Positions 17,359 through 41,054 of a stretch of 48,694 nt of DNA are shown piece after piece. The DNA lies in the NCBI RefSeq assembly GCF_900167015.1, contig NZ_FUXX01000016.1:1-48694 (forward strand). The letters are read 5' to 3'. Every line of letters starts with the position of its first letter. Within the stretch, counting starts at the first letter, position 1. The notes under the pieces are model-generated. The model did not search any database and was not told the origin of the DNA. It worked only from the letters and a program-made list of their open reading frames with translations. Made by a program: the position numbers and the translations under genes. The DNA is from Succinivibrio dextrinosolvens DSM 3072 (lineage in GTDB: Bacteria > Pseudomonadota > Gammaproteobacteria > Enterobacterales > Succinivibrionaceae).

Positions 17359-17388
17359 TATGACAAAAATCAATCATCTGGGGTTTTT

Positions 17389-18546: not shown

Positions 18547-18558
18547 CTCTGTTGCTAA

Positions 18559-18810: not shown

Positions 18811-18829
18811 TCTTAAACAAAATATACTG

Positions 18830-18835
18830 TATAAT
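18830..18835 (+). promoter_or_regulatory. -10 box of the tRNA-Arg gene
   Basis: A perfect TATAAT preceded by TG lies 20 bases before the tRNA. No convincing -35 box is at the expected distance. Confidence 0.45.
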
Positions 18836-18855
18836 GTTCAGATGTTTATGATGCT

Positions 18856-18932
18856 GTCCCTGTAGCTCAGTTGGATAGAGCGTTCGCCTCCTAAGCGAAA
18901 GGTCGGCGGTTCAATTCCGCCCAGAGACGCCA
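18856..18932 (+). tRNA. tRNA-Arg (anticodon CCU)
   Basis: The 77 bases fold as a full tRNA with encoded CCA at 18930-18932. The D-arm region reads TAGCTCAGTTGGATAGAGC. The anticodon arm GTTCGCCTCCTAAGCGAAAG carries CCT, which reads AGG. The T-arm is GGCGG-TTCAATT-CCGCC. In the acceptor stem position 4 (C) faces 69 (A), a mismatch; the other six pairs are normal. It lies 4 bases from the stop of the convergent iclR-type gene. Confidence 0.92.
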
Positions 18933-18936
18933 TAAA

Positions 18937-19698: not shown

Positions 19699-19773
19699 AA
19701 AAAAACTCCTTTGATTCTGCTTTAAGAAAAAATACTTTATGCTAGTCCATAATGCTTAAGAAAAGTACTCCAA

Positions 19774-21198: not shown

Positions 21199-21213
21199 TT
21201 AAAAATCCTTAAT

Positions 21214-22239: not shown

Positions 22240-22272
22240 AAAATCTCTCCAAATTACTTTTTGGGAGAATTA

Positions 22273-22288
22273 TTCAAAATTTATGCCA
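22273..22288 (-). promoter_or_regulatory. sigma54 promoter of flrBC
   Basis: The minus strand reads TGGCATA-N4-TTGA, with GG-N10-GA spacing. The -12 GA variant is the same as at flgD. It lies 34 bases before the flrB start; in Vibrio flrBC is itself sigma54-dependent. Confidence 0.62.
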
Positions 22289-22376
22289 TTAGAATTTTAT
22301 TATTATATATCAATATGATAGTTATACTTATTCAAAGGTATGACAAATTTATGGCGAAGAAAAATGAATAATAAAA

Positions 22377-22405
22377 TGTCGCAATTGATTAACACAACTG
22401 CGACA
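22377..22405 (-). terminator. rho-independent terminator of purL
   Basis: An 11-bp stem (TGTCGCA core, one G-T pair) closes a 7-base loop and is followed on the minus strand by TTTTATTATT. It lies 40 bases after the purL stop. Confidence 0.85.
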
Positions 22406-22444
22406 CTTTAAATAATTAGATAAAATCAGTCTGTTATATCTGTA

Positions 22445-25400: not shown

Positions 25401-26338
25401 CCTGAACCTGTAGCAGCACCAGGGAAAGGAGAAATCGCAGTTGGGTGATTATGAGTTTCAACCTTCATTAAAATAGGCATATCTTCCTGATGATATGCCC
25501 ATTCGTGATTTGGATTTGGAAAGAATCTGCCTGCACAAGAGCCTTCCATAACAGCAGCGTTATCCTTATAGGCGGATAACACATAGTCAGGAGTTGACTC
25601 ATAAGTATTTTTAATCATGCCAAACAGAGATTTATCCTGTTTCTTGCCATCAATTTCCCATTCTGCACTGAATACCTTGTGACGGCAGTGTTCAGAGTTC
25701 ATCTGAGCAAACATGTAAAGCTCAATATCAGTAGGATCTCTGCCGATGCCTTTGAAACTCTCTAACAGATACTCCATCTCGGGCTCAGATAAGGCCAGAC
25801 CAAGCTCAACATTGGCAACTCTTAGGGCATTCATTCCCTGAGTTGTCAGAGCAACAGTCTTAAATGGTTTTGGAGTCTGTTTTTCAAATAGATTTGCAGC
25901 AGCTTCGAATGAAGGTAATACATTCTCCATCATTCTGTCGTGAATCAGAGCACTGATAACTTTCTTTTCACTTTCATCAAAAGAGCCCTGCTCTTTCTTA
26001 ATGTAGTAGGCAATACCGCGCTCAATTCTTAGAATCTTGTTTAAACCACAGTTGTGGGCAATATCAGTTGCCTTTGTAGCCCATGGGGAAATTGTGCCAA
26101 TTCTAGGAATAACAAAGAACAATTCTCCATCAGAATCTGTATCTGATTTTGAAGGACCGTAACTCAAAATCTTCTTTAATACAGAATTTTCCTCATCTGT
26201 AAGAGGTTCCTTAATATCAACTAAGTGAACAAAATGAGTATTGATTGAACTTACCTTGATGCCATCTTTTGCTAAAGATTGAATGATTTTTTCAAGTCTA
26301 AAGATAGAAACGGCTGGAGAACCTAAAATGATATCCAT
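22445..26338 (-). CDS. purL: phosphoribosylformylglycinamidine synthase PurL
   Basis: PurL converts FGAR to FGAM with glutamine and ATP in purine synthesis. The protein (1297 aa) is the long, single-chain form typical of gammaproteobacteria. An N-terminal PurS-like domain is followed by two AIRS-type domains with [35 protein letters not shown] and a second set including [18 protein letters not shown]. The C-terminal glutaminase has the nucleophile in [12 protein letters not shown] and the catalytic His/Glu in MPHPERVMR. It is a single-gene unit with its own terminator. Confidence 0.97.
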
Positions 26339-26614: not shown

Positions 26615-26755
26615 GTGAAAAAATCAAGTCGTTTACTTCATAACAGTACAGCTCAGAGACGTTCTCGCCTAAGACAGGCTTTTATTAAAAATGCTCGCGC
26701 CCGTCGCCAGGCTAGACAGGAAGTATTCTTCATTCAGGAACAGTCTCACTCTTAA
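26615..26755 (+). CDS. small basic protein of unknown function, fliS operon
   Basis: A GTG start at 26615 is preceded by CGGAGG at a spacing of about 8 bases, a strong ribosome binding site. The 46-residue product is very basic (STAQRRSRLRQ, NARARRQARQE) and ends at TAA 26753-26755. It sits between the sigma28 promoter and fliS. I do not recognise a family; ribosomal proteins L34 and S21 do not fit. The charge suggests binding to nucleic acid or to an acidic partner, as an inference. It could also be a short regulatory ORF upstream of fliS. Confidence 0.55.
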   Translation: MKKSSRLLHNSTAQRRSRLRQAFIKNARARRQARQEVFFIQEQSHS

Positions 26756-26849
26756 TCTCGGCACTCTTCTTGCATTAAAACATTACAAAACTTATGGTGG
26801 CAAAAACATGCCACCTAGAAATAATATTGTAAAAAGCAAGGAGAGATCT

Positions 26850-27317
26850 ATGTACGGCCGTAATCTAAAAGCCTATCAGAAAACCAACGTCAATGCAGAA
26901 TTGTCCGTTGCTGATCCCTATTACGTAACCAAGCTGCTTTATCAGGGACTGTTCGAGAGAATTGCACAGGCAAAAGGTGCAATTGAACGAGGAGATCTTG
27001 CATTGAAAGCAAAAAAACTATCTACAGCAACAGCAATCTTAGAAAATCTTAGAAGTACTCTGGATTTTTCTCAAAGTCCTTCTATTGCACAAAGTCTTTT
27101 TGACATATACTCATACATGATTGATCAGCTGGCAGAAGCTTCTATCCAGATTAAAACAGAGCCTCTGGATAACGCTCTTCGAGCATTCATGCCAATTAAG
27201 AAAGCATGGGATGCTATTCCGATTGAGGCTCAGAGAGAAGCTCAGGCAAAAAGATCAGATGAACAACTTAATATTGATTTAAATCATGATGCTAATATAG
27301 CAAAAGGATTTATTTAA
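26850..27317 (+). CDS. fliS: flagellin export chaperone FliS
   Basis: FliS keeps flagellin unfolded-competent and delivers it to the export gate. I choose the ATG at 26850 (MYGRNLKAYQKTNVNAE, 155 aa), since AAGGAG lies 6 bases upstream and the family begins this way; a reading from 26691 would add 53 unrelated residues. VTKLLYQGLFERIAQAKGAI and LSTATAILENLRSTLD are typical FliS helices. The C-terminal 25 residues beyond AWDAIP are an extension. The flagellin genes are not in this window. The fliT-like gene follows after 1 base. Confidence 0.92.
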   Translation: MYGRNLKAYQKTNVNAELSVADPYYVTKLLYQGLFERIAQAKGAIERGDLALKAKKLSTATAILENLRSTLDFSQSPSIAQSLFDIYSYMIDQLAEASIQIKTEPLDNALRAFMPIKKAWDAIPIEAQREAQAKRSDEQLNIDLNHDANIAKGFI

Positions 27318-27318
27318 A

Positions 27319-27645
27319 ATGGAACTGCAAGAAATCATCAAAAAAATAACAGAAACAGAGGCATCAATTTCAAAAGAGCTTGAAAAAGATAATCTGGAGC
27401 TTGCCCAGGAGTATTTAAATCGTTCACATGAGCTTTTAAAAGAATTAGTAAAAATAAAAGACTCTCTAACGGATGAGAATCTCAATATGGCAAAGGAGTT
27501 TGCATCAGCTTATGCCGAGCATATAAAAGAGCAGGTAAAGATTCTTGCTGTTGAGCAGGCAAAAATCTCTGATGAATTCAAAAAAGTAAGAAAACAGCAT
27601 CAGGTATCAAATAAATACGCAAAGATCCAGAAAATTCCTTATTAA
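27319..27645 (+). CDS. fliT: FliT-like flagellar chaperone
   Basis: The 108-residue protein is almost entirely helical and charged, with heptad leucines (NLELAQEYLNRSHELLKELV). Size, helix pattern and position directly after fliS fit FliT, the chaperone of the filament cap FliD, or the FlaI-type proteins of Vibrio. Sequence identity to FliT is too low to see by eye. It is co-transcribed with fliS from the sigma28 promoter. Confidence 0.6.
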   Translation: MELQEIIKKITETEASISKELEKDNLELAQEYLNRSHELLKELVKIKDSLTDENLNMAKEFASAYAEHIKEQVKILAVEQAKISDEFKKVRKQHQVSNKYAKIQKIPY

Positions 27646-27676: not shown

Positions 27677-28285
27677 ATGCAGATCGAATTCAATAATATA
27701 ACTACTCTGACTAAAGAAGAACAACTCCAAATTCTCGAATGGCGAAATAGGGACTTCATTCGAGAAAAAATGCTCAACCAGAACATCATTTCCAAAGAAG
27801 AGCATCTTGTATATTGTAAAAATTTAACAAAAGACAAATCAAATTTAGTATATCGAGTATCGATTAATAAAATACCTTGTGGTGTCATCAATTATACAAA
27901 ACTTGACTACACAAATAAGACAGGAGAATTTGGGATTTATGTGTTAGATAAAAGCAGACGCATAGGAATTTGTGTAGGAAGACTTGCTATATATTATTAT
28001 TTTGAGGTACTCAATTTTTCTGAACTAAGAATTCGAGTTTTATCCAGCAACAAACGAGCCATTCTATACTTTGAGAAGTTATTATTTTTTTCAGCTCCGT
28101 ATCTTTATAAAAAAGAATTCATTATTAACGGTTCTAGCATTGACATTATTCATTATTCAATGAGTTATAGACATTGGAATAATGTAGTAAAAAATAGATA
28201 TATGGATACCATTTGTCATAATTCATTCATAGTTGATGAAAAACCAGAAAATATTTATTATCAAAAATCTCCTCTAACCATTTGA
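27677..28285 (+). CDS. PseH-like GNAT acyltransferase
   Basis: The 202-residue protein resembles PseH, which transfers an acetyl group to the 4-amino group of an amino-sugar nucleotide during pseudaminic acid synthesis. Typical is ILEWRNRDFIREKMLNQNII with SKEEHLVYCKNL, then the VYRVSINKIPCGVINYTKLD strand pair and a GEFGIYVLDKSRRIGICVG acyl-CoA-type loop. It lies 31 bases after the fliT-like gene and converges with the KAS III gene, whose stop is 3 bases away. The acyl donor may be acyl-ACP rather than acetyl-CoA, as an inference from the neighbours. A second, different PseH-like enzyme is at 34266-34796. Confidence 0.8.
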   Translation: MQIEFNNITTLTKEEQLQILEWRNRDFIREKMLNQNIISKEEHLVYCKNLTKDKSNLVYRVSINKIPCGVINYTKLDYTNKTGEFGIYVLDKSRRIGICVGRLAIYYYFEVLNFSELRIRVLSSNKRAILYFEKLLFFSAPYLYKKEFIINGSSIDIIHYSMSYRHWNNVVKNRYMDTICHNSFIVDEKPENIYYQKSPLTI

Positions 28286-28288: not shown

Positions 28289-29365
28289 CTAACCACAAGG
28301 ATATTCTTGAACAGAACAAAAATCCAGTTTGCCCACGTTACAAATAGCACATCCTGCTGACATACCTGCACCAAAAGCAGCAAAACAGATTTTTTTGTAT
28401 TCCTTTAACAACGTTTCTGACAAATTGAAGCATAAATTTACAGGAATAGTTGCACTGGAGGAATTACCGAAGTTTTCAACAATATTATCAAAAATAATAT
28501 CCTGCTTAACACCAATAAGATCTGTTAGTTTATCAACTAAAAATTTATTAGGCTGATGAGTAATGAAATAGTCTATCTGAGTTTTGCTAATACCGGAATA
28601 ATCACAAGTATCCTCAATAAGTTTTGGAATATTATCCATTACAAAATGAAAAACACGAGTTCCATCCATATGAAGTTCATCGTCCCGAACAAGATTTCCA
28701 AATGAATCTTCCTTCAATATTTTTGATTCTTCGGAAGATGGATTCCTCATGCCTCCAGAAGGCACAATCAGAGTATGTAATTCAGAACTATCATGATAAA
28801 AATCAAAATAAATACAATCATCTGGATTACTAGTTTTTTTTATAAGTGTAATCCCGGCAGCATCTCCCATAATAGGATAAGTATTTCTGTCTTTGATATT
28901 TAAATGACATGTACCAGCACAGGAATTAACAAGAATTACATTCTTAATGTCAGAGGAAGAAATAAAACACGCTGCATTGTATAATCCAGAAATAAAGCCA
29001 TTACAGTTATCGTATAAATCGACACAATGAGTTAACGTACTCAGCTTCAGTCGATTGTGTAATACCTTTGAATTGCCAGGAACTGGATATTCACACTGCT
29101 GACTAACAAAAACTAAAGCATCAATATCTTCCTTTTTAATAATATTATTATCAAATAGACAGTTAACCCCATATTCAGCAAGATCTATTAGAGTTACATC
29201 AGCTGGAGCAATTCTATGTTCCCTAAACCCCATTGTCTGAGCAAGTTTTCTTGAAGATCTCTCTGGGAATGGATAATACTTTATCTCGTCCTCAAATTTA
29301 GAAACTCTAGAAGGAACAACTGCGCATACAGAGGAAATTGATACTCCTTTTATTGTTGCTTTCAT
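28289..29365 (-). CDS. 3-oxoacyl-ACP synthase III (KAS III, FabH-like)
   Basis: KAS III enzymes condense an acyl thioester with malonyl-ACP. All three catalytic residues are present: Cys121 in YDNCNGFISGL, His270 in ITHQPNKFLV and Asn301 in FGNSSSATIP. The protein (358 aa) is longer than housekeeping FabH (about 317), with an insertion around residues 185-235. An AAGGAG ribosome binding site precedes the start. It is the last gene of the nine-gene operon and lies 5 bases after the ACP gene. It is probably not the housekeeping fabH, as it lies with a ligase and a permease rather than with fabD and fabG. Confidence 0.87.
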   Translation of the reverse strand: MKATIKGVSISSVCAVVPSRVSKFEDEIKYYPFPERSSRKLAQTMGFREHRIAPADVTLIDLAEYGVNCLFDNNIIKKEDIDALVFVSQQCEYPVPGNSKVLHNRLKLSTLTHCVDLYDNCNGFISGLYNAACFISSSDIKNVILVNSCAGTCHLNIKDRNTYPIMGDAAGITLIKKTSNPDDCIYFDFYHDSSELHTLIVPSGGMRNPSSEESKILKEDSFGNLVRDDELHMDGTRVFHFVMDNIPKLIEDTCDYSGISKTQIDYFITHQPNKFLVDKLTDLIGVKQDIIFDNIVENFGNSSSATIPVNLCFNLSETLLKEYKKICFAAFGAGMSAGCAICNVGKLDFCSVQEYPCG

Positions 29366-29370
29366 AACAA

Positions 29371-29613
29371 TTACTCCTTAATCTTAGAGTTAACTAAATT
29401 TTCAATTGACTGAATCGATGAAAAGTTTTCAGGAATAAAATCCAATCCAGATATTTTTATGTTGAATGATTTCTCAATATCATCAATAATCTGCAATATG
29501 TCAAAACTAACCAAAATTCCAGAAGATACAAAATTTCTTGATTCAGTACGAAAATCGATTTCAGGATGAATATCCTCTAATATAGAAAAGAGGATCTCTT
29601 TAATATCTTTCAT
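29371..29613 (-). CDS. acyl carrier protein, variant attachment motif
   Basis: The 80-residue acidic helical protein has the ACP fold pattern. The phosphopantetheine serine is Ser36 in GILVSFDILQIIDDIE; the usual DSL reads VSF here, so the serine is kept but the preceding Asp is replaced by Val. It would carry the growing acyl chain. It lies 9 bases after the ligase gene and 5 bases before the KAS III gene, which makes it the likely carrier for that ligase. Confidence 0.82.
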   Translation of the reverse strand: MKDIKEILFSILEDIHPEIDFRTESRNFVSSGILVSFDILQIIDDIEKSFNIKISGLDFIPENFSSIQSIENLVNSKIKE

Positions 29614-29622
29614 ATTTAATAC

Positions 29623-31101
29623 TCATTTCAGTAAATTACGCTGTAAACTTCCCTTATAAGTTCTCGGTATTTTGGAAATAAATTCATAAAACTCTGGAAT
29701 CTTATACGATTCTAAACGTTCAGACAGAAAACATCTTAATCCCACAAGATCAAACAACTCCTCTTTTACTTGATTTTCAAGTTGAATAAACAGTTTGGGA
29801 GTTGTCCCCTTTGTACTATCGTTAACAGGAATACAGGCACAATCTGCAATTCCGTTAAATTTTAAGACTATATTTTCTACATCTTCAGGAGAAAATTTAT
29901 AGCCACCTACGCTCAGGATATCCCCTTTTCTTCCTAAAAGAACAATATCTCCGTCCTCATCAATATAAGCAATATCGTTTGAATAAACAATTCCGTCACA
30001 CATTACATCTTTAATTGAAGAAGCATTCTCTCCATAATAGCCAATCATATTAGCTCTGCTCTTGCATGAGAGTAATCCCGGATTATTCTCTGATGAGCTT
30101 ATTATTCTATGATTGTCATCAACTATCATAATATTAGAATTTTTTGCAGGTTTTCCAATGCTTCTCTGCTTATAATCACGACTAAAATCAGAAATACAGC
30201 TTATTCCACTTTCTGTAGAACCATACATATTTAAAAGTTTCGTGTCTGGTAGTATTTTCCTTAGCGTTTCTTTGTCTTTCTCTGAAAGTGGCGCAGATCC
30301 AAACTGGATATAACGTAACTGTTTTGAATATTTCCCTAGTTCTCCACCAGACATTTTCAAAATAATAGATAAAGCAGAAGGAACCATATCCATCGAGTTA
30401 ACATGAAATTGACTCATCTTTTCGAAAAGATTGGTTAAATAGACAACGCTATTCTGCATCACAACAGATGCTCCAATATACATATTTGCATAGTATCGTC
30501 TTAGACCATGGGAATGGTTAAAAGGAGATAGAATAAATTCGATATTGTCTGATTTTAATTCTGCCCCATGAATTACGTTTTCTGCTAAGGCAACATTGTT
30601 ATCATAGGATATGATTATTCCTTTTTCACTACCTGTTGTTCCTGTTGTAAATAGAATCTCACTAACATCATTAGGTTCAGGGTATTTGCTAACTTGTGCC
30701 GGTAAAACGTTAAAAACAGAGTTTTCAAAGGAATCGAAATAAAGAATATTAACAAAATTCAATCCCTCCCTTTTTGAATTAAGAATCAAAAAATCTGGAC
30801 TGACTTTCGAAATAAAATCCTGTATTTTTTCATTTGAGCAATTCGCAGGAATCGGTATAAATACTGCATCTGCAAGTTGTAAAGAAGCCTGTATAGCCAA
30901 GTACTTTATTGTCTGGCTAGATTCAACAAGAACCTTGCTTTTTCTTTTAACTCCATATGAGAAAAGACAAGTTATTCCTTTTAATATCAAATCGGCATAC
31001 TCTTTGTATGTAACAGATCCATAATCATCAACCAGACACAATTTATCTGGATTATCAAATGAATGTTGTATTATTGCTTCTGGAATAGACTTAAACATCA
31101 T
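29623..31101 (-). CDS. adenylate-forming acyl ligase (AMP-binding)
   Basis: The 492-residue protein activates a carboxylic acid with ATP, probably to load the adjacent ACP. The A3 motif is ILFTTGTTGSEKG (about 149-161), A5 is NMYGSTESG (291-299) and A8 is GRKGDILSVGGYKFSPED. In A10 the family reads PRTxxGKxxR, but here it is PRTYKGSLQR: the essential lysine is Ser485, and a lysine occurs two residues earlier (Lys483). An AAAGG ribosome binding site fits the start at 31101. The substrate cannot be read from the sequence. It is co-transcribed between the permease and ACP genes. Confidence 0.87.
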   Translation of the reverse strand: MMFKSIPEAIIQHSFDNPDKLCLVDDYGSVTYKEYADLILKGITCLFSYGVKRKSKVLVESSQTIKYLAIQASLQLADAVFIPIPANCSNEKIQDFISKVSPDFLILNSKREGLNFVNILYFDSFENSVFNVLPAQVSKYPEPNDVSEILFTTGTTGSEKGIIISYDNNVALAENVIHGAELKSDNIEFILSPFNHSHGLRRYYANMYIGASVVMQNSVVYLTNLFEKMSQFHVNSMDMVPSALSIILKMSGGELGKYSKQLRYIQFGSAPLSEKDKETLRKILPDTKLLNMYGSTESGISCISDFSRDYKQRSIGKPAKNSNIMIVDDNHRIISSSENNPGLLSCKSRANMIGYYGENASSIKDVMCDGIVYSNDIAYIDEDGDIVLLGRKGDILSVGGYKFSPEDVENIVLKFNGIADCACIPVNDSTKGTTPKLFIQLENQVKEELFDLVGLRCFLSERLESYKIPEFYEFISKIPRTYKGSLQRNLLK

Positions 31102-31114
31102 ATGCTAACCTTTA

Positions 31115-32512
31115 TCACATAAAACTAATGTAACTCAGCAAACTTAGGGACACTAGCATAATAACAGTGATAGGAATACCTTTTTTCAACATATAAGAAG
31201 GTAACATTCCGTATCCTATGGGAATTGCTCTTATTGACGTTGGAAGCATATATGATAGATTTACACCAATTGCAGCTATATAAACATAAGGAATAGAATC
31301 TTTACCTAATCCAGAGGTTACCGCTATAACTATAGGAATGGCAACAGCTGCTGTAGCCGTATTACTGGTTATATCAGAAAGTAGAATAGTGAAGACTAAT
31401 ATAGTAGCAACCAGAATAAATGAATTATCACTATTTAAGTCAGACATATAGTTTCCAATTGCATTTGCGGCTCCACTTTGATTAATCATGCAACCAACAG
31501 CCAGACCACCGGCAAAAACATATATCAGCTCCCATACAACCTTTTGTTGGGTAACTTTCCAAACAAGAACTCTTGTTCCATTTTTTCTAACAATCAAAAA
31601 AGATAGAATCGCGCAAATAATGAATACATATGCAGGTTTAAGACCAGGGAGAAATGAAGCATAAAACTGTCTTGTAAAGGATAATACAGTTGCAACCGCA
31701 AACAGAATCAACACCAGTTTTTCTTCAAATGTTGCCTTATTAAGCTTTTTATATTCATTTAAATAGAAATCTTTTGTTCCTCGTAATGTATCAGTTTTTT
31801 TACACTGAAATATTAAGTAGATAATATTAGATACAACTAAAAAAAACATTATAGGAAGGAAGTTAATTACCCAATCCAAATACATAAATTCTTCTTTAGT
31901 TATATCTTCAATGTACTTTACAGTAACCAAATTCATTGCACCACCTAAAGGAGTAGCTAATCCTCCAACACCTGCTCCATAGACAATAGTAAGAAGAACC
32001 AAAGAAGCTTTTTCTGATTTAGCTATGTCTACTTCACCAGCAAATCTAAGCATAGCAACAGCAATTGGGATGATTGAGGCACACACAACTGCATTAGGAA
32101 GAATTGAAGATAAACATGCAGACATAAGGAACCAGAGAGAAACCTGAATACGAAGATTCGGCCCCATACAAGATAAGATTAAAGAAGCTATCCTCTTATC
32201 AACTCCTGTTACCTCCCATGAAACGGTCATTATAGAAGCGCCCAAAAGAAGAAGAATTGTCTCCGACGAATAATTTGAGATAACAGCATTCATATCTGCA
32301 ATTTGGAAAATTGCATTTACAGCAATAGGTAAGAAAGCAGTTACAGCAAGATCCACTGGACAGGTTACCCACCATAGGGCCATCCAAATAACCGTGCCAA
32401 CAGCTCCATTAGCTTCCTTAGAACCAAATACATAAGTAGGAATAAAAAAATAAAATAAAGAAAACAATAGAGGACCTGCAAGAATGTAGCTCCATCTCAG
32501 CCTATTATTCAT
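31115..32512 (-). CDS. DASS/SLC13-type anion permease
   Basis: The 465-residue integral membrane protein has about 11 hydrophobic segments. The second sodium/substrate motif SNT is present in SDITSNTATAAVAIPIVIAV, while the first pseudo-repeat reads SILPNAVVCASIIP instead of SNT. The family moves dicarboxylates, citrate or sulfate with sodium. It lies 2 bases after the SDR gene and 13 bases before the ligase gene. In this context it might import the acid that the ligase activates, an inference. Such a permease is unusual in a flagellin-modification operon. Confidence 0.85.
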   Translation of the reverse strand: MNNRLRWSYILAGPLLFSLFYFFIPTYVFGSKEANGAVGTVIWMALWWVTCPVDLAVTAFLPIAVNAIFQIADMNAVISNYSSETILLLLGASIMTVSWEVTGVDKRIASLILSCMGPNLRIQVSLWFLMSACLSSILPNAVVCASIIPIAVAMLRFAGEVDIAKSEKASLVLLTIVYGAGVGGLATPLGGAMNLVTVKYIEDITKEEFMYLDWVINFLPIMFFLVVSNIIYLIFQCKKTDTLRGTKDFYLNEYKKLNKATFEEKLVLILFAVATVLSFTRQFYASFLPGLKPAYVFIICAILSFLIVRKNGTRVLVWKVTQQKVVWELIYVFAGGLAVGCMINQSGAANAIGNYMSDLNSDNSFILVATILVFTILLSDITSNTATAAVAIPIVIAVTSGLGKDSIPYVYIAAIGVNLSYMLPTSIRAIPIGYGMLPSYMLKKGIPITVIMLVSLSLLSYISFM

Positions 32513-32514
32513 TT

Positions 32515-33240
32515 TTATATCTTCCCCGCGTTCAAATATATTGCTGTTCCTGTAACCTTAGTTGATTTTTTGTAAAGCATGAATCTTATCTGTTCAACAA
32601 CATCATCAACTGATAGAATTCCTTGTGGCTGAAATGAATTAATAAAAGATTCATATTGAAATCCATGTGCCTCTTTAATTGTTTGAATCATAGGAGTATC
32701 AACCATAACAGGCTGTATAGTATTAATTTCAACATTGCTTTTTATCAAACCTTGAGAAATCGATCTTACAAAACTATCTAGCGCACCTTTTGTTGCAGAG
32801 TACATTGATGTTCCAAAAGTTCCTCTAAAAGAGGCAATTGAAGATAATGCTACAACCCTAAACTGACTAGTTTTATCCTTATTACATACAAGTAAACGTA
32901 ATATTTCTACAAATGAAAAAAAATTCACATTCATAATATTTGAGAAAGCATCATATTTAATCTTCCTAAGAGGAACTTCCATTGATATACCTGCACAGTG
33001 AATAAATCCATCAATTTTATCGTTCAAAATCGAAGATATTGAATCTTTAATTGAGGGAACATTACTTAATTCAATTAAGACTGTATCTATTTGAACTTTT
33101 CCCATTAAAGACTGTTTTAGTCGCTCTAACTTTTCCTGAGATCTTCCTAAAGCGTAAACATGAACAGACTCTCCCTCAAAAGAACGAATCAAGCTTTCAC
33201 CTATCCCAGAGGTTGCTCCTGTAATAACATAAGTCTTCAT
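32515..33240 (-). CDS. SDR-family oxidoreductase (FabG-like)
   Basis: The 241-residue protein is a short-chain dehydrogenase. It has the NAD(P) loop TGATSGIGES (residues 7-16), HCAG (81-84) and the catalytic Ser134, Tyr147 and Lys151 in SSIAS and SMYSATKGAL. In this operon the likely job is reduction of a 3-oxoacyl-ACP to a 3-hydroxyacyl-ACP, like FabG. A sugar-nucleotide reduction is also possible. Its start overlaps the hydrolase stop by 4 bases, an ATGA, so the two are translationally coupled. Confidence 0.88.
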   Translation of the reverse strand: MKTYVITGATSGIGESLIRSFEGESVHVYALGRSQEKLERLKQSLMGKVQIDTVLIELSNVPSIKDSISSILNDKIDGFIHCAGISMEVPLRKIKYDAFSNIMNVNFFSFVEILRLLVCNKDKTSQFRVVALSSIASFRGTFGTSMYSATKGALDSFVRSISQGLIKSNVEINTIQPVMVDTPMIQTIKEAHGFQYESFINSFQPQGILSVDDVVEQIRFMLYKKSTKVTGTAIYLNAGKI

Positions 33241-34028
33241 AAAAGAGGTTCCTTTAAAATCGTTGGTAATTCACTGATAAATTTTCGCCAAGTTTTAATA
33301 TCATGCATTCCATTCTCAATTATCCTTAATGTCGATGGAATTCCCTTGTTTGAAATAATATTAAAAAAATACTCAGTCTGATTTAAACTTAAATAATCAT
33401 GATCTCCACATATAAAATCAAACTTTGGAAAAAAACTTAGAGAAGATGAGTCTATTATCTCAAGCTGCTTTAGAATATCGGCCGAAAACTTTATTGAATT
33501 ATCTTCCTCACACGCAGTTTTCATATAAGGAAACAGAATACTAGCTAATATTTTAGTTTCTCTTTGATTTTTTATTCTAAAATCAACAGGTAATCTGTAA
33601 TCATAAAATCCAGAAAGTAAAAATACCCTATAAAAATAGCTACTCCGTCTAATACTCCAGTTCAATGCACCATAAGCCCCCATTGAGAGTCCAAGACAAA
33701 TATTATTCTCTCTTAAACTTGATAACGGTAATAAATCTAGCAAGTATGGATACAATTCAAGATCAAGAAAATCAGCGACATTCCTGTTGAAAGAATTCAA
33801 GTAAAAGGAATTTGAAAGAGAAGGACAAATCACAACATAGCCGTTATCAACCAAATCCAAAAGATTTAATCTTTCAAAAAACAGATTTCCACCTGAAATG
33901 GCACCATGAAGGCACCATATATTTTTAAATGACTGTTTTTTGAAAGACAGAGGCTGAGGTAAAGCTATATTTATTTCAATTGGTTCATTTAGAACAAGAG
34001 AATCTAAAGATAGTTGTATTTTGAGCAT
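33237..34028 (-). CDS. alpha/beta hydrolase (esterase or thioesterase-like)
   Basis: The 263-residue protein has an alpha/beta hydrolase pattern: HGAISGG near the oxyanion hole, nucleophile Ser115 in GLSMGAYGALNW, an acid residue in CGDHDYL (Asp209 or Asp211) and His242 in GMHDIKTW. The closing HD-x(2)-W resembles esterase D/S-formylglutathione hydrolase relatives. No signal peptide is seen. In the operon it could release or transfer an acyl group, but a proof-reading thioesterase is equally possible. Confidence 0.8.
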   Translation of the reverse strand: MLKIQLSLDSLVLNEPIEINIALPQPLSFKKQSFKNIWCLHGAISGGNLFFERLNLLDLVDNGYVVICPSLSNSFYLNSFNRNVADFLDLELYPYLLDLLPLSSLRENNICLGLSMGAYGALNWSIRRSSYFYRVFLLSGFYDYRLPVDFRIKNQRETKILASILFPYMKTACEEDNSIKFSADILKQLEIIDSSSLSFFPKFDFICGDHDYLSLNQTEYFFNIISNKGIPSTLRIIENGMHDIKTWRKFISELPTILKEPLL

Positions 34029-34035
34029 TATGAGT

Positions 34036-34251
34036 CTATTTCAAAGCAAGATCAACAAGATCACCTACAGTATTACACTTGCCCAAATCTGCTAAGGAAT
34101 AATTTTTGCCCTGATTTTTAAGAAAAACAACAAGACTAAATAAAGCCAAAGAATCGATATCATCACATTCAGAAATAACTGTTTCAGAAGTTATTTCATC
34201 TATAGGGTCAATAACTTCAATTATTTTTTGTAGCATTTCTTCTTTATTCAT
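34036..34251 (-). CDS. acyl carrier protein
   Basis: The 71-residue acidic protein has the classical phosphopantetheine site DIDSLALFSL (Ser34) within helical sequence. It lies between the GNAT gene and the hydrolase gene, with gaps of 14 and 7 bases. Its C-terminal half (SLADLGKCNTVGDLVDLAL) resembles ACPs of the PKS/NRPS type. It is distinct from the ACP at 29371, so the operon has two carriers. Confidence 0.87.
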   Translation of the reverse strand: MNKEEMLQKIIEVIDPIDEITSETVISECDDIDSLALFSLVVFLKNQGKNYSLADLGKCNTVGDLVDLALK

Positions 34252-34265
34252 AAGAATCTCCTTAA

Positions 34266-34796
34266 TTATCCAATTATTTTAAAACTATATTTTGAAAAAA
34301 AAGGATCGTTATCATAATCTTCCGGAAATGAATAAAACTCAAAATAAACAGCCTTATCATCCTCTTTTACAAGATTGCCTTTTAATTTCATTAAGTTATA
34401 CAAGATTGCCTTTGTATTAAATTTAAGAACATGTGTACGTATAACAATTAAGCCAAAGTGATTGCACAATGAATTTGCACATCTGCTTATAGGATAAGCA
34501 TATTCATTATGTTCTCGAATTATATAAAAACCACTTTCTGCACTGTGATCACGTTCATTGATATTAACAAAATCAAGTACTGCACAAGGATTGTTATTTA
34601 CATAAACTAAAAAATATTTTTTATCTTTTTTTTCTTTTAAGCTCTGACAGAATCTGATGTGCGAATCATAAGAAAAACCATCTGAATTATCCATGTTTTC
34701 TCTTATATAATCGAGAGTTCTCCACTGATAAACTAACTTTACTTCATTTTCATCTAGCAATCCAAAATTCTTGAAGGTAATTAGTTTTTTTTCCAT
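34266..34796 (-). CDS. PseH-like GNAT acyltransferase, second copy
   Basis: The 176-residue protein shares the PseH-like opening pattern with the protein at 27677: LVYQWRTLDYIRENMDNSDG, then SHIRFCQSLKEK and YFLVYVNNNPCAVLDFVNIN. The acyl-CoA loop is poorly conserved. I choose the ATG at 34796; a TTG one codon earlier is possible. The ATG overlaps the KAS III stop as TGATG, a tight coupling. It probably transfers the acyl group made by the operon to an amino sugar. Confidence 0.75.
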   Translation of the reverse strand: MEKKLITFKNFGLLDENEVKLVYQWRTLDYIRENMDNSDGFSYDSHIRFCQSLKEKKDKKYFLVYVNNNPCAVLDFVNINERDHSAESGFYIIREHNEYAYPISRCANSLCNHFGLIVIRTHVLKFNTKAILYNLMKLKGNLVKEDDKAVYFEFYSFPEDYDNDPFFSKYSFKIIG

Positions 34797-35968
34797 CAAA
34801 TCTTTCCTGCAACTTTAGATTTCCAATAATCAATCCACTGAGATCTTGTCTTAAAATCTGCATCTTTTTCAAAATTTTTTATTCCTGAAGAAAATGTATT
34901 TTTTAAATCTAAAATTGCGGTAGCCACGACAAGACCATTCCCAAAACCTGAGCATAAATAAGGTTTAGTCTCTAGTTTTGACTCCTCTTTTGATAAAATC
35001 TCGGATAAAACAGAAGGAATTGAACACATTGTGTTATTACCGTAGTTTTCAAAAACAGAACAAGGTGCATCTTCAATACTAAATCCAGCAGCACAGGCAA
35101 CTGTCTGAACAATTTGCTTATTCGCCTGATGAAGACAGCACTTGGCTATGTCAGAGTGTTTATATCCAGAAAAAGATAGAACAGATTTAATCTGCTCAGG
35201 AACTTTATTCATTGTGAATTCGAATACAGCATCTCCATCCATATGACCTGCCATAAGACGGGTTAAATAACCTGCTTTTGAAGTGAATTTATCAACAAGA
35301 GGGGCATTAAATGGATCATCTGGTGGAAGATTATGATTATATCTTAATCGACAACCACCAGCAGGAGAAATAATTGTGTCAAAACCAGAACTAAAAGTAG
35401 ATACTCCAAAAAAGGATTCAATTTGTTCTTCTGAGAATTCAATAAAAGTTGCACTTCCGCCATCTCCAAAAATAGGAGCTAAGTTTCGATCCTTTATATT
35501 AATTCCAACAGAAGGAGTATCTGCATTTAAAAGAAGAATTCTTTTAATCCCCCCACTCTCAATCATCTGTGAGCACAAAAACAGACCATAAACCCATCCG
35601 GCACACCCCTGCAAAACACTTGTGCAGATACAATCTGGAGATAATCCTAATTTATGGTGAATCTCATAAGCATCAACAGGCCCCGGATACGAAAGCTTCT
35701 GATGAACGTATATGAGTGCATCTATACTTCCTTTCTCAATTGACTGTTCTTCAAATAAGTTATTAGCCGCCGCAATTGCCAAATCTGAGGGAGTAACATC
35801 TTCATCTGCGGTTCTTCTTTTGAAAAAACCTACAATTTTTCTCATTCTATCTATTTTTTTTATGTTATTGTCATAATACATAGCCTCATCATAGATAGAT
35901 ATTTCGTGCTCTGGTACCACAACAGAAATCGCAGAAACCTTAACATGATTAAATTTATAAAAGGACAT
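34796..35968 (-). CDS. 3-oxoacyl-ACP synthase III (KAS III), second copy
   Basis: The 390-residue protein has intact KAS III residues: Cys122 in LQGCAGWVYGL, His280 in CCLHQANKQIV and Asn311 in NYGNNTMCSIP. About 70 residues longer than FabH, it has an insertion near 200-235 and a C-terminal tail of about 45 residues ending in WIDYWKSKVAGKI. It is the first gene of the operon, about 120 bases after a sigma28-type promoter. It is only distantly similar to the KAS III at 28289, so the two may use different primers or extend successive cycles. Confidence 0.87.
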   Translation of the reverse strand: MSFYKFNHVKVSAISVVVPEHEISIYDEAMYYDNNIKKIDRMRKIVGFFKRRTADEDVTPSDLAIAAANNLFEEQSIEKGSIDALIYVHQKLSYPGPVDAYEIHHKLGLSPDCICTSVLQGCAGWVYGLFLCSQMIESGGIKRILLLNADTPSVGINIKDRNLAPIFGDGGSATFIEFSEEQIESFFGVSTFSSGFDTIISPAGGCRLRYNHNLPPDDPFNAPLVDKFTSKAGYLTRLMAGHMDGDAVFEFTMNKVPEQIKSVLSFSGYKHSDIAKCCLHQANKQIVQTVACAAGFSIEDAPCSVFENYGNNTMCSIPSVLSEILSKEESKLETKPYLCSGFGNGLVVATAILDLKNTFSSGIKNFEKDADFKTRSQWIDYWKSKVAGKI

Positions 35969-36343: not shown

Positions 36344-38572
36344 TCACTCGTACCTCTTCACAAATGTTTTCAGAGGATCGTCAAACAGGGTTCTGATAAT
36401 CTCAAATTTACCCGGGAATGGAGGAGCCTTACCATAGGATGTATCCATTCCTACCTGACAATCTTTAAAATATTTTCTATGATCCCACATGGCATAATCA
36501 GGTAGATAAGAGAATAGCACCTGAGCTTCATTTAAGAAGTCTTTCACCAGACTCATAATCCTGTTGGCAGCCTCTATACATTTAGACTCATCTGCGCAGT
36601 GATAAAGAGCTCTTGAAACCAGAATAAACAGATTCTGAATACTGCCATTTAAGACAGATCCATAGTAGAATGTTTCTCTGTCATTCATAAGATCAGATAT
36701 ATATTCTGAAAGCTTTACCATCACCTTAACATAATCAACTCTATTATCTGGCAGGTTATCAAGTATATTAAGAGATTTCTGACAGATTTCATTAAACTTC
36801 ACAGAATCAAAGAGCTTGCTGAAGGCATGTTCAGGGAAGTGTAAAACAGCAGTTTTCTCCCCAATTACATATTCAGAGAACTTCTGTTTATCAATATCAG
36901 GCTTTGCTGAAAACTCTTTGATAAGATCTTCAGAATGAGTAGGAATGGTATTCTCCATAAAAATACCATCAGAACAGTTATGACAGACAAGCTTTTCATT
37001 GTTTAGTTTCTCCATCTGCAACAGGAAGCTTATATTATGCCCCGACATGACAAAAAAGAAACTGCTCTCACATTGTCCACCGAAATTACCCGGCAGAACT
37101 TTCTCTATCTGATAAGGACCAGCATTATCCACAACACCTCTGTTGGTGTACAGGGTGGTGTAGGAGGAGTGCATATTGTTAGTACCTATCTTTTTACCGT
37201 TATCAACTCCGAAAAGATAGATATTTTCAAACCCAAAGTAGATGGCAGAAGCCAGTCCCGCATTTCCTACCACAGGATTTGACAGCTTTATCTCCTGTAT
37301 TTTTTCAAGCTCAGGATAATAAGCGGTTAAATAAGGGAAAAACGGTTCATCATTCTTGGCAAAAATAGCTGAGTTCTTAAAATATTTAAGAGTATTTCTG
37401 TGGCAGGTATCTGATGCAACAATGATAATATCCTGTAAAAACTTCTGATCTGGAATAACACCAAGAGTTGAATCTCCAACGTTAAACGTTCTTTCCAGAT
37501 TTACATAAAAATCAGGTTTTATCCCTGCATGGTAAAGAGAATCAATAGCCGTTCCACAGGCGACTACAATTGCCTTATCCTGATATTTTCTTAAAAAAGG
37601 AATATCGTGATCGAAGGATGGACCAGCACCAATTACAAATACAGGCAAATCTTTATATTCTTTCTTTAAAGGCTTATTTAAGACAAACCTATGCTTGTTA
37701 TTTATAAGCTCAATGCCCTGACTTGTCGCAAACAGGTGATCATCAAAGAAGCCTATGGCTTCGTGGATCTGATCAAAGTGTTTTTTTATCTCATCCCAGG
37801 TCTTCCTGGTCTCATCATTTATGTAATGAATATATGTAAACCAGGAGCCGGATAAGAACAGACCAGATTTCTTATAGGCAGATTCTATATCTAAAAATAG
37901 ATGATCTGTATCAACTCCGATAATAAAATGAATCAGATGCTCACTTTCATGCAGATAATCAAGAAGATTACTCCAGTCAAAAGCAAACATTGAAGCATAA
38001 AACAGGTCTGGATCAGGTTCAACCAGTACCAGATTCTCAATCTCAACCTGTTCATAGAGTCTTGCAAGATGATAGCCAAGACCTATACCAATCATCAGGC
38101 AGTTTGGGAATGACTTAATATCCTTTATTAAAAGCTCTTTATCTCTAGGTAGGGAATTCTCAATCGCCACAGCTTGGTTACTGTATTTAAAATGAATCTG
38201 CCCATATGGGTCAAATTCTTTCTGATATTTGGTCTGCTGAACTTTGGCCTCTGACAGAAACTTATCCATCTCCTCCTGACAGTACTGGATAGGGTCTTCA
38301 GTTTTATAAAAGAATTCATTCTTCTGAGTAAATATCAGGTTAGGAATGCCGTTTGTGGTACAGAAGAATTCAAAACTTTTGACAGGGGTATAAGACTCAA
38401 ATCTTTTGGCTATATCTGGGTAGTACTTTTTAAATGACTCCAAGTTATTACAGAATCTCTCTTCGAGAAACTGATACATATCAGACTGGATTTTCTTTAA
38501 TTCAGCAAGATTCTGTACAGATAATTCCTGATTATTCTCGGAGCTGATTTCATTTCCTTTATTCTTTTGCAT
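36344..38572 (-). CDS. Maf-family flagellin glycosyltransferase
   Basis: Motility-associated factor (Maf/PseE) proteins transfer nonulosonic or similar sugars to flagellin serine or threonine in the cytoplasm. This 742-residue protein shows the MAF/DUF115 core LMIGIGLGYHLARLYEQVEI, VFVIGAGPSFDHDIPFLRKY and ACGTAIDSLYHAGIKPDFYV, with long helical ends. It diverges from its paralogue at 38790. No signal peptide is seen. It lies upstream of, and on the same strand as, the acyl operon but is separated from it by 375 bases. Confidence 0.87.
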   Translation of the reverse strand: MQKNKGNEISSENNQELSVQNLAELKKIQSDMYQFLEERFCNNLESFKKYYPDIAKRFESYTPVKSFEFFCTTNGIPNLIFTQKNEFFYKTEDPIQYCQEEMDKFLSEAKVQQTKYQKEFDPYGQIHFKYSNQAVAIENSLPRDKELLIKDIKSFPNCLMIGIGLGYHLARLYEQVEIENLVLVEPDPDLFYASMFAFDWSNLLDYLHESEHLIHFIIGVDTDHLFLDIESAYKKSGLFLSGSWFTYIHYINDETRKTWDEIKKHFDQIHEAIGFFDDHLFATSQGIELINNKHRFVLNKPLKKEYKDLPVFVIGAGPSFDHDIPFLRKYQDKAIVVACGTAIDSLYHAGIKPDFYVNLERTFNVGDSTLGVIPDQKFLQDIIIVASDTCHRNTLKYFKNSAIFAKNDEPFFPYLTAYYPELEKIQEIKLSNPVVGNAGLASAIYFGFENIYLFGVDNGKKIGTNNMHSSYTTLYTNRGVVDNAGPYQIEKVLPGNFGGQCESSFFFVMSGHNISFLLQMEKLNNEKLVCHNCSDGIFMENTIPTHSEDLIKEFSAKPDIDKQKFSEYVIGEKTAVLHFPEHAFSKLFDSVKFNEICQKSLNILDNLPDNRVDYVKVMVKLSEYISDLMNDRETFYYGSVLNGSIQNLFILVSRALYHCADESKCIEAANRIMSLVKDFLNEAQVLFSYLPDYAMWDHRKYFKDCQVGMDTSYGKAPPFPGKFEIIRTLFDDPLKTFVKRYE

Positions 38573-38789: not shown

Positions 38790-41054
38790 ATGACAGAACA
38801 ACAGATTAACCCATTCATACACAAAGATTCAGAATTAGAACAGCTTGAAAAAAAGTATTCTGATATCTTTATTAAAAGTCTTGAAGACCTCCATGAAATA
38901 ACCTCTCTGCAGCAGGTTATGAAAGAAGGACTTAAGGATCGTTTTAACAGAAATATGGAAGCTTTTAGGAAATATATTCCAGATGTAGCCAAAACATTTG
39001 AAAAATACACCCCTAAAACAAATATGGACTTTTTCTGTCTAAAAAATGAAATTCCAAATCTGATTTTTACAGACAGCAATGATATTCTGTATAAAACAGC
39101 AGATCCTTTTGAGCTAACTCATAATCAGATTTCAAATATCATAAACAATTCAAACATCAACCAGTTAAGGTATCAGGTTGAGTATGACCCATATGGTCAG
39201 CTTCATTTTAAATACAACAACAGACTTGTTGAAATTGAACAGTCTGTTATCAGAGATAAAACTGTTACTCCCAAGCAGATCGAATCTCTTCCAAACTGTG
39301 TAATGCTTGGAATTGGACTGGGATATCCACTTGCTGATCTTTACAATCAGGTAGAAATAGCCAACCTGATTATTGTGGAACCAAATACTGATATATTCTA
39401 CGCATCGTTACAGGCTTTCGAATGGGCTCCTTTTCTAGATTACATATTTGAAAACAAGCTTGGAATTCATCTGATGCTGGGGCAGAATTCAGATCAGTTC
39501 TTTATTGATCTGGAAAGATTCTATGAACGTCATGGAAGATTCCTTTCTGGAACCTGGCTTGGATTTATCCATTATTCCAACAAAAAAGTAAAAGAATTCA
39601 TTTCATTATTTGATAAGCACTACAGATCAATTAATGCAGCAATGGGCTTTACCGATGATCATCTTTTCGGAGCATCCCATGCATGTTATGCAGTCTTAAA
39701 TGAAAAGAACTTTGTTTTAAATACCCCATTAAAAGAAGAATACAAAAACAAACCTGTATTTATCATCGGTTCTGGTCCATCTTTAGATCACGATATTCCT
39801 TTTATTCGTAAATATCAGGATAAGGCAGTTATTATTGCCTGTGGAACAGCAATAGATGCTTTATACCATGCGGGAATAAAACCAGATTTTTATGCTAATA
39901 CCGAAAGAACTCCACAGATAAAACAAGCTCTAAGCACAATTTCTGATAAAGAGTTTTTTGATGATATTGTTCTTTTAACCGGTGATGTATGCCATCCATA
40001 TACCTTAAACGAATTTAAGCATACAGCTATATTCGGTAAGCCAGATGAACCATTCTATCCATATTTTGCAATGAATTTTCCTGAGTTCAGAAAAGTTCAG
40101 CACATTCAGCTTATGAACCCGCTTGTCGGTAATATGGGACTATCCGGAGCAGTATACTTCGGGTTTAACAATCTCTATCTGTTTGGATTAGATAACGGTA
40201 AAAAGACTGGTACTAATTCAATGCATTCAGAATTCACCACTCTGTACAAGGAAAGAGGTGTTGGAGATACAGGAGGAAACTATACTATCACCAAGACCGT
40301 TCCAGCTAATTTCGGTGGAACATGTGAAACAGGATATCTTTTTGATCTATCAAGAAGAAATATGGATTTTGTGCTGCAGATGGAAAAGCTTGGCAGACCT
40401 GATCTTGTCTGTCATAACTGTTCTGATGGAGCATTGCTTGAACAGGCACAACCAGTTCACAGTGAAGATTTGAACAACATTTTTGATAAGCTTCCTGATA
40501 TAGATAAAAAAGAATTATTCACTTATATAACACAGGAGAAAACATCTAAAATCAGCCTTTCAAAGGAGCTGATTACAAAGGCTTTCAATAATGAGATCTT
40601 TACTCAAACCTGTAACAAAATAAAGTCCATAATACTCAAAAAACCAGACAACAGAGTTGATTACATAAAGAATATGGAAACAGTTTCCGAGGTTCTTTAT
40701 TACCTGAAAACGGATCCATCAACATATTTCTACGGAGCATCATTAGAAGGTTCGATACAGACCTTCTTTATGCAGATCGCAAGAATGCTTTATCACAGCA
40801 GAGATGAAAAAGCATGTATAGCTCTTGCTGACAAGGGAATGGACGTTATCGCAGACTTTCTGGATGAAATTCCTAACCTGTTCAGTCATATGCCTTTCAT
40901 ATACCTAGGAGAGCATCAGAAAATCTATAAGGATGGAAAGGTTGGAATTGATATGCCTAACTGTAAGGCGCCAAATCTGCCTCAGATGCAGATTCTGGTA
41001 AAGGATGACGGATATAGAGATCCTTTATCTAAGTTTATAAAAAAACACGAGTAA
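38790..41054 (+). CDS. Maf-family flagellin glycosyltransferase, second copy
   Basis: The 754-residue protein is a paralogue of the product at 36344 and collinear with it: EIPNLIFTDSNDILYKTADP, VMLGIGLGYPLADLYNQVEI, VFIIGSGPSLDHDIPFIRKY and CGTAIDALYHAGIKPDFYAN. Both end with a related block (APPFPGKFEI there, APNLPQMQIL here). Two Maf proteins may recognise different flagellins or different sugars. It lies on the plus strand and reads toward the structured RNA at 41341. Confidence 0.87.
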   Translation: MTEQQINPFIHKDSELEQLEKKYSDIFIKSLEDLHEITSLQQVMKEGLKDRFNRNMEAFRKYIPDVAKTFEKYTPKTNMDFFCLKNEIPNLIFTDSNDILYKTADPFELTHNQISNIINNSNINQLRYQVEYDPYGQLHFKYNNRLVEIEQSVIRDKTVTPKQIESLPNCVMLGIGLGYPLADLYNQVEIANLIIVEPNTDIFYASLQAFEWAPFLDYIFENKLGIHLMLGQNSDQFFIDLERFYERHGRFLSGTWLGFIHYSNKKVKEFISLFDKHYRSINAAMGFTDDHLFGASHACYAVLNEKNFVLNTPLKEEYKNKPVFIIGSGPSLDHDIPFIRKYQDKAVIIACGTAIDALYHAGIKPDFYANTERTPQIKQALSTISDKEFFDDIVLLTGDVCHPYTLNEFKHTAIFGKPDEPFYPYFAMNFPEFRKVQHIQLMNPLVGNMGLSGAVYFGFNNLYLFGLDNGKKTGTNSMHSEFTTLYKERGVGDTGGNYTITKTVPANFGGTCETGYLFDLSRRNMDFVLQMEKLGRPDLVCHNCSDGALLEQAQPVHSEDLNNIFDKLPDIDKKELFTYITQEKTSKISLSKELITKAFNNEIFTQTCNKIKSIILKKPDNRVDYIKNMETVSEVLYYLKTDPSTYFYGASLEGSIQTFFMQIARMLYHSRDEKACIALADKGMDVIADFLDEIPNLFSHMPFIYLGEHQKIYKDGKVGIDMPNCKAPNLPQMQILVKDDGYRDPLSKFIKKHE

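Follow-up and report, generated by a model that had tools for sequence, protein, structure and literature searches.

The locus described here raises the question of why a set of genes for acyl-chain chemistry should lie within a flagellar gene region, and which acyl group it could supply there. The stretch of DNA analyzed (48,694 nucleotides, referred to below as the window) is contig 59 of the 2.67 Mb draft genome of Succinivibrio dextrinosolvens DSM 3072. It carries a nine-gene operon (28289-35968, minus strand) located between genes for flagellar proteins and two Maf glycosyltransferases. By analogy with known flagellin glycosylation systems, we favor with moderate confidence the interpretation that the operon builds a short 3-hydroxyacyl chain on an acyl carrier protein (ACP) and uses it to N-acylate a precursor of pseudaminic acid, which Maf would then place on flagellin.

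The gene content and packing of the operon were read directly from the DNA. As stated in a preliminary description of this locus, the nine genes are tightly packed on one strand (junctions of -4 to +14 bases), and family searches support each name that it had given: two ketoacyl-ACP synthases of type III (KAS III), two ACPs, a ligase, an SDR reductase, an alpha/beta hydrolase, a DASS permease, and a PseH-like acyltransferase. All open reading frames were found at the coordinates given below, and the order of transcription is KAS2, GNAT, ACP2, ABH, SDR, DASS, LIG, ACP1, and KAS1. KAS2 and GNAT overlap by four bases, or by one base (TGATG) if GNAT starts at the ATG at 34796; the remaining junctions are +14, +7, -4, +2, +13, +9, and +5 bases. 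The first and last genes, KAS2 (34796-35968) and KAS1 (28289-29365), encode KAS III proteins (PF08545, PF08541). Both keep the catalytic Cys-His-Asn, with the aligned C122, H280, and N311 invariant, and KAS2 matched PRK12880 with 225 bits, below the cut-off of 436. GNAT (34266-34796) encodes a PseH-like N-acyltransferase without the CoA pyrophosphate loop. Directly downstream lies ACP2 (34036-34251; motif DSL), which matched PF00550 with 18.7 bits, just under the cut-off of 20.8. ABH (33237-34028; PF00756) is an alpha/beta hydrolase of an esterase family and a possible editing thioesterase; it matched esterases in the PDB (E 1.4e-11), and homologs are present in clusters of two related genomes (G032 and G034). 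SDR (32515-33240) resembles 3-oxoacyl-ACP reductases and matched PF00106 and other SDR models, including PF13561, the name of which mentions enoyl-ACP reductase although the model is a general SDR model. Its NCBIfam matches to YmfI (118 bits) and to 3-oxoacyl-ACP reductase (105 bits) were both below cut-off. The product of DASS (31115-32512; PF03600, PF00939) is a DASS-type anion permease with a match to TIGR00785 below cut-off, and LIG (29623-31101; PF00501, PF13193) encodes an AMP-forming acyl ligase. ACP1 (29371-29613) keeps the serine, and the Asp before it is replaced by Val (VSF). No Pfam match to ACP1 was found at E 0.01, and the NCBIfam ACP models matched below cut-off (best E 1.7e-7). 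ACP1, ACP2, and GNAT are the weakest family assignments in the operon. The counterpart of ACP1 in G032 reads DSF at the position of VSF, and the usual transferase may modify ACP1 poorly.

We infer which substrate is used, in which order the steps run, which acceptor receives the acyl group, and what the second arm and ABH do; the route through KAS2, SDR, ACP2, and GNAT is drawn by analogy with the vio cassette of Pseudomonas syringae. The operon would be part of an acquired sugar-acylation island between FliT and Maf. On ACP2, KAS2 would condense a malonyl and a short acyl unit, and SDR would reduce the product to a 3-hydroxyacyl-ACP, most likely 3-hydroxybutyryl-ACP. GNAT would transfer the 3-hydroxyacyl group, where an acetyl is customary, to the 4-amino group that is free in the product of PseC; PseG, PseI, and PseF, whose genes lie on other contigs, would then give CMP-pseudaminic acid with an N7-acyl group, and Maf1, Maf2, or both would attach the acylated sugar to flagellin. 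According to the available text of two reports (PMC6333632, PMC3628348), 7-N-(R)-3-hydroxybutanoyl pseudaminic acid occurs in capsule and in O antigen. The second arm (DASS, LIG, ACP1, and KAS1) may import and activate a carboxylic acid as an alternative starter, with LIG loading the imported carboxylate onto ACP1. ABH may remove wrong acyl groups, a guess made from its family alone. The preliminary description had proposed a 3-hydroxyacyl or longer chain. A short 3-hydroxyacyl is favored, and a long chain was rejected as unsupported: no KAS I/II or dehydratase was recognized among the nine operon proteins, and the named NCBIfam matches of SDR lie below cut-off.

Next to the operon is a second PseH-like GNAT N-acyltransferase gene, PseH2 (27677-28285, plus strand; TIGR03585), which is convergent with the operon and lies three bases from its end. 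Counted with the nine-gene operon, PseH2 is the first gene of an insert of ten. Among PDB sequences, the sole match of GNAT at E ≤ 1 was PseH of Campylobacter jejuni (E 5e-11), and the same protein (4xpk) was the best match of PseH2 (E 1.2e-11). GNAT had no Pfam match at E 0.01. An AlphaFold model of GNAT (pLDDT 63, built from a four-row alignment) had PseH as its best fold match and matched FdhC as well, the structure of which has been solved with CoA and a 3-hydroxybutanoylamino sugar.

The insertion site was likewise observed directly. Comparisons, here and below, covered 394 genomes of the order, 56 of the family, and 14 control genomes; the P values come from related genomes. The left flank of the site consists of FliS (26691-27317, plus strand; PF02561) and a FliT-like gene (27319-27645, plus strand). 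The latter had no Pfam match and is named for its position and its resemblance to the corresponding gene of relatives. Two Maf glycosyltransferases, as had been described, lie on the other side: Maf1 (36344-38572, minus strand) and Maf2 (38790-41054, plus strand), both with PF20157 and PF01973. The model of the Maf N-domain was silent in all 14 control genomes. Maf1 and Maf2 are 49% identical; the FliT-linked Maf of G032 is 54% identical to Maf2 and 43% to Maf1, and Maf2 corresponds to the Maf found after FliT in relatives. Insertion sites were compared in 24 Maf-bearing stretches, of which one is the window and 23 belong to related genomes. FliS and Maf were both found in 18, window included; six lacked FliS, some of them ending at a contig end. 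In 16 of the 18 loci, FliS, a FliT-sized gene, and Maf are contiguous and run in the same direction. FliS and Maf are 348-775 bases apart in these loci, and in one case two small genes lie between them. Cargo between FliS and the first Maf was present only in the window (9.0 kb) and in one other genome, G030 (locus L201, 10.5 kb); at both loci the first Maf is reversed and a second Maf follows. Since the contiguous arrangement prevails and cargo is confined to these two loci, the ten-gene block appears, together with Maf1, to have entered a conserved flagellar locus by insertion. The GC content of the insert is low (29.7-36.1% in 1-kb windows vs 38.9%, sd 3.3, in the rest of the window), which is no more than suggestive. 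No convincing flanking repeats that could indicate mobility were found around the insert.

Two side observations concern this region. Maf1 and Maf2 are divergent paralogs with inverted stretches, among them a perfect 26-base inverted repeat (36966-36991 and 40404-40429), and inversion or gene conversion between them may have occurred. The FliT-Maf1 junction in the window and in G030 looks like an exchange point. The G030 cargo (L201:3300-16500) differs from that of the window and includes a GNAT, integrase- and transposase-like genes, AAA genes, and a gene with a PD-(D/E)XK nuclease domain; its GNAT was found in 2 of the 56 family genomes and is not a PseH shared across the genus.

The genes for PseB, PseC, PseF, PseG, and PseI are present in the genome, with NCBIfam scores of 523, 484, 273, 190, and 430 bits, respectively, all over cut-off. 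PseB, PseC, PseF, and PseG are clustered on contig 39, which also carries a flagellin-family gene about 6 kb from the cluster; PseI is on contig 11. Five PseH-like matches were found in the genome, none over the cut-off, and the top two are GNAT and PseH2 of the island. The earlier proposal of an acyl-on-ACP pathway is supported, with a PseH-like acyltransferase as its last enzyme, and so are the links to Maf and to pseudaminic acid. A second nonulosonate set was observed on contig 67 (L042, 30001-47996), between Maf genes and a flagellin gene. It consists of a NeuB-family protein and a fusion of a cytidylyltransferase with a PseG-like protein, none of which reaches the cut-off of the model concerned, and one Maf on this contig is split by an in-frame stop.

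Relatives of the cassette were sought with an alignment of KAS III sequences (A1), which was matched in 366 of the 394 genomes at E ≤ 1e-40, ordinary FabH included. A KAS III with more than 250 bits was present in 13 of the 394; the next scores were 213 and lower and include ordinary FabH, a KAS III beside a ligase in G008 (213), and a third KAS III of G032 (208). A PseH-like GNAT (E ≤ 1e-13) was detected in 11 of these 13 genomes vs 140 of the 394 overall (hypergeometric P 3e-4), some of the 140 being other GNATs, since 6 of the 14 control genomes match at the same threshold. The GNAT lies within 10 kb on the same contig in nine of them. In G016 it is on the same contig about 16 kb off, in G146 it is on another contig, and the only GNAT of G405, about 1 kb from its KAS III, is weak (31.6 bits). 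No PseH-like GNAT was found in G333 despite its KAS III of over 250 bits.

The nearest relative, G032 of the same genus, has a cluster with homologs of all nine operon genes. Identities are 61% for DASS, 57% for KAS1, 56% for ACP1, 41% for SDR and for ACP2, 32% for GNAT, and 30% for ABH; KAS2 reaches 30% at best, and that match is the KAS1 counterpart. In G032 the counterpart of ACP1 adjoins that of KAS1, and the DASS gene lies about 5 kb further on, beyond MotY-like and Sel1-like genes. This cluster (L031; contig 27 of G032, 6001-26000) is a larger sister of the operon, with a formyltransferase, a radical SAM-SPASM protein, three KAS III, four ACPs, and two PseH-like GNATs, followed by the MotY-like gene. 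KAS1 was matched at E ≤ 1e-45 in 7 of the 394 genomes including its own; outside G032 (57%) the identity was 29-33% in the other five. DASS was matched at E ≤ 1e-60 in 2 of the 56 family genomes, its own and G032, and these are the same two that have a close KAS1, a shared distribution that speaks for the permease as part of the pathway.

The inheritance of DASS together with KAS1 also fits another explanation, which we consider improbable: that the ligase arm alone supplies the acyl group, an imported carboxylate being transferred directly from the ACP, with the KAS III proteins acting as acyl-shuttling transferases rather than condensing enzymes. A dicarboxylate symporter (PF00375, unlike DASS) is found near a LIG-KAS-ACP-KAS cluster in G016, and the G043 locus has ACP and ligase but no KAS III, as does, so far as the available text on it goes, the Aeromonas group II island. 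Both KAS III proteins of the operon retain Cys-His-Asn, however, SDR is reductase-like, and sets of KAS III, SDR, and ACP recur in stretches in which no ligase was matched (L065, L066, and L141).

The occurrence of the cassette inside Pse loci elsewhere is a direct observation. In a member of the Selenomonadaceae from sheep rumen (L067), PseG (303 bits), PseI (481 bits), a PseH-like GNAT (82 bits, under cut-off), ACP, SDR, and KAS III are consecutive on one strand. A 20 kb locus in G406 (L085) holds PseI (507 bits), PseG (154 bits, just over cut-off), PseH (97 bits, over cut-off), ACPs, SDRs, and two KAS III, as well as a ligase-like protein and an MptE-like (Maf-type) protein. Loci in G366 (L086) and G059 (L140) are much like it but had no ligase match, and G366 had no MptE-like match either. 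Other clusters lie beside dehydratase and DegT aminotransferase genes (G287, G405, G333, G146, and Flavobacterium L061) or beside glycosyltransferases (L060 and L066); a DegT gene is present in L062 and L063, G016 has a dehydratase and DegT on the same contig, and G019 (L027) has a NeuB-like gene. None of the sugar genes searched for were found in the stretches examined, some of them short, of L028, L029, L031-L035, L064, and L065; L031 has the formyltransferase mentioned above, and L035 a pyruvyl transferase. Bacteroidota also carry the cassette, beside amino-sugar or glycosyltransferase genes.

KAS III, ligase, ACP, and hydrolase genes are also usual in small biosynthetic clusters. The operon could on this ground be thought to make a free small acyl compound, such as a signal or antibiotic-like molecule, unrelated to glycans. 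We regard this as very improbable given the PseH-like GNATs, the Maf neighbors, and the recurrence with sugar-nucleotide genes, and no exporter or tailoring enzyme was recognized among the nine operon genes. A stronger competitor, still unlikely in our view, is that the acyl group goes onto another surface sugar, such as an amino sugar of lipopolysaccharide or capsule, and that the adjacency to Maf is an accident of insertion. The relatives beside dehydratase and aminotransferase genes and in Bacteroidota fit this explanation (to our knowledge, Bacteroidales are not flagellated), as does the location of KAS III and Maf on separate contigs in the nine other family genomes, and the genome itself has amino-sugar genes on C41 (FdtA-GNAT, DegT). 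It is opposed by the insertion into a FliS-FliT-Maf locus together with a second Maf, by the co-occurrence of the cassette with PseI and PseG in L067, L085, L086, and L140, and by the fact that PseH is, among solved structures, the best match of both acyltransferases in a comparison that left out FdtC and VioB sequences.

Acylation of pseudaminic acid for flagellin has to be weighed against a number of contrary findings. KAS III and Maf lie on different contigs in 9 of the 9 other family genomes with such a KAS III (draft assemblies). Because of this separation and of the presence in Bacteroidota, the cassette, as judged by its neighborhoods, is not tied to the flagellum and is not flagellar as such; on this point the preliminary description is corrected. 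That description had named separation of these genes from Maf in relatives as evidence against its own proposal: they are separate in position (9 of 9) and not in genome content, since all 10 family genomes that carry these KAS III also have Maf, vs 42 of 56 overall (P 0.04; related genomes). The designation as a flagellin glycosylation region stands as to FliS, the FliT-like gene, and Maf; the window contains no flagellin gene, and all nine flagellin-family matches in the genome are on other contigs. LIG is only 22% identical to the ligase of G032. The best consensus score of a sigma-28-like site upstream of KAS2 was equaled by 10% of shuffled sequences, in a scan that gave no clean sites upstream of flagellin genes and in which L001, L004, and L006, located on the other strand, were scanned on the wrong side. 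Neither GNAT in the window reaches the curated PseH cut-off (TIGR03585, 93.1 bits): GNAT scored 66.4 bits and PseH2 about 90.0-90.3. The model itself is not specific at the thresholds applied: the above 6 of 14 control genomes match it at E ≤ 1e-13, and at E ≤ 1e-3 the number rises to 13. Of the 56 family genomes, 43 have a PseC that exceeds its cut-off, and 15 have a PseH-like match at E ≤ 1e-13, none over cut-off. The idea that the island is the sole source of PseH in the genome is weakened by these counts. Because most relatives with PseC also show no strong PseH match, supply of PseH by the island is a possibility only; the genome may hold an unrecognized PseH, and the island need not supply this step.

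A separate question is whether GNAT draws its acyl group from ACP. According to the accessible part of a structural report, the CoA pyrophosphate loop of GNATs reads Gln/Arg-x-x-Gly-x-Gly/Ala, and PseH of Helicobacter pylori, an acetyl-CoA enzyme, has an atypical loop (PMC4964394). The operon GNAT reads HNEYAYP at this position, so the Gly-rich loop is absent; residues 92-102 of the model, which form the loop, have pLDDT under 50. Loss of the loop is no proof of ACP use, since the loop of H. pylori PseH is atypical and FdhC was solved with CoA, and this too counts against the proposal. The relation was examined in 60 PseH-like GNATs with known neighborhoods, using the pattern Gly-x-Gly/Ala; 40 added loci (L161-L200), mutually related, were picked by loop state before their ACPs were inspected. 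In its first form the pattern also caught glycines upstream of the loop: an ACP lay within 300 bases for 22 of 38 GNATs without the pattern vs 9 of 22 with it (P 0.28). After that result it was restricted to the last 11 aligned residues. An ACP was then found within 1.2 kb for 34 of 43 loop-less GNATs vs 4 of 17 with the loop (P 1.8e-4), and within 300 bases for 27 of 43 vs 4 of 17 (P 0.009). A tree-based test had three supported independent contrasts only, too few for significance. A looser pattern matched none of 15 KAS-linked GNATs (PseH2 and the second GNAT of L031 counted) vs 34 of 60 others; at least five of the 34 matches were upstream glycines and not the loop, and one group among the 60 is loop-less without any KAS III. 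This count left out L045, L120, and L142 (linkage ambiguous; none matched), the duplicates L116, L118, and L119, and proteins of 240 residues or more. The apparent association of loop absence with a nearby ACP gene in PseH-like GNATs is a lead only, because the result depends on the placement of the pattern, the genomes are related, and the tree contrasts are few.

A broader proposal, which we advance tentatively and with some doubt, is that branches of the PseH family dropped the CoA loop and take the acyl group from a dedicated neighboring ACP. N-acylation would then be modular, with KAS III, ligase, and LuxC/LuxE as swappable suppliers that would alter the acyl group of the sugar, and the FliT-Maf junction would be a place of module exchange. 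If true, this would explain diversified acyl decoration of flagellar nonulosonic acids without a changed sugar pathway, and it would assign one enzyme step to the ACP, ligase, and KAS III genes that have so far lacked an explanation in flagellin islands. It would also give a sequence rule, in which a PseH-like GNAT without the Gly-rich loop and with an adjacent ACP flags acylated, not acetylated, pseudaminic acids in genomes.

How does the island compare with known systems? For the operon GNAT, PseH (TIGR03585; 4XPK, 4RI1) is the best sequence and fold match; unlike PseH, GNAT is below the curated cut-off, lacks the Gly-rich CoA loop, and has an adjacent ACP gene. The region Cj1298-Cj1308 of C. 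jejuni, which lies in a flagellar region and presumably has KAS III and ligase assignments, is likened to the island by description. The accessible part of one report lists Cj1308 and acpP2 of C. jejuni as putative ACPs (PMC6338021). The psb locus of Shigella boydii type 7 and the Acinetobacter K93 locus share the proposed product class, 7-N-(R)-3-hydroxybutanoyl pseudaminic acid; in the available text their product sits in O antigen and capsule, not on flagellin (PMC3628348, PMC6333632).

The closest precedent in Pseudomonas is the viosamine island of P. syringae, for which the available text describes vioS (KAS III), vioR (reductase), acp, and vioB, the presence of 3-hydroxybutyryl viosamine on flagellin, and loss of the modified sugar upon vioR deletion (PMC3927599). 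The KAS III precedent invoked in the preliminary description is thereby borne out. As in this island and in orfB-E of P. aeruginosa PAK, KAS III, reductase, ACP, and N-acyltransferase would furnish a flagellin sugar with a short 3-hydroxyacyl amide (PMC3927599, as far as available). At the family level the operon has the vio-type elements, namely KAS III with Cys-His-Asn and SDR and ACP in the same operon, with the reductase models below cut-off. Unlike P. syringae, the window has two KAS III, two ACPs, a ligase, a permease, and a hydrolase. Its acyltransferase resembles PseH, pseudaminic acid is the probable sugar, and Maf stands in place of VioT. Judged by family assignment, vioA and vioT are not among the nine operon genes, and Maf genes follow instead.

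Flagellin islands of Aeromonas group II and of enterobacteria contain ACP, 3-oxoacyl-ACP reductase, and AMP-dependent synthetase/CoA ligase genes, and the Aeromonas group II island also has pse genes and Maf, according to the available text (PMC7874193, PMC4875605). The operon shares ACP, reductase, and AMP synthetase with Aeromonas group II. In contrast to it, these islands carry LuxE and LuxC, and the available text names no KAS III, DASS, or hydrolase for them. LuxE and LuxC are not among the nine operon genes but are present in relatives (L038 and L027); in L038 (G043 contig 139, same genus), ACP, SDR, ligase, LuxE, LuxC, and a PseH2 relative form one run, an acyl supply of the Aeromonas group II type. 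The set of genes, described earlier as much fuller than known ones, is so with respect to Pseudomonas; ACP and ligase had already been described in the Aeromonas and enterobacterial islands. In a literature search that missed most subscription journals, we found no published set of two KAS III and two ACPs with a permease in a flagellar locus, and no published ACP-using PseH. Islands with ACP, reductase, and ligase in Aeromonas and Enterobacteriaceae, and KAS III in Pseudomonas, are thus already known from the available literature. What is new here, as judged from sequence, are the paired KAS III/ACP arms, the co-inherited permease, and a PseH-type GNAT without the CoA pyrophosphate loop. The island is a real and richer variant of the known type of acyl cassette.

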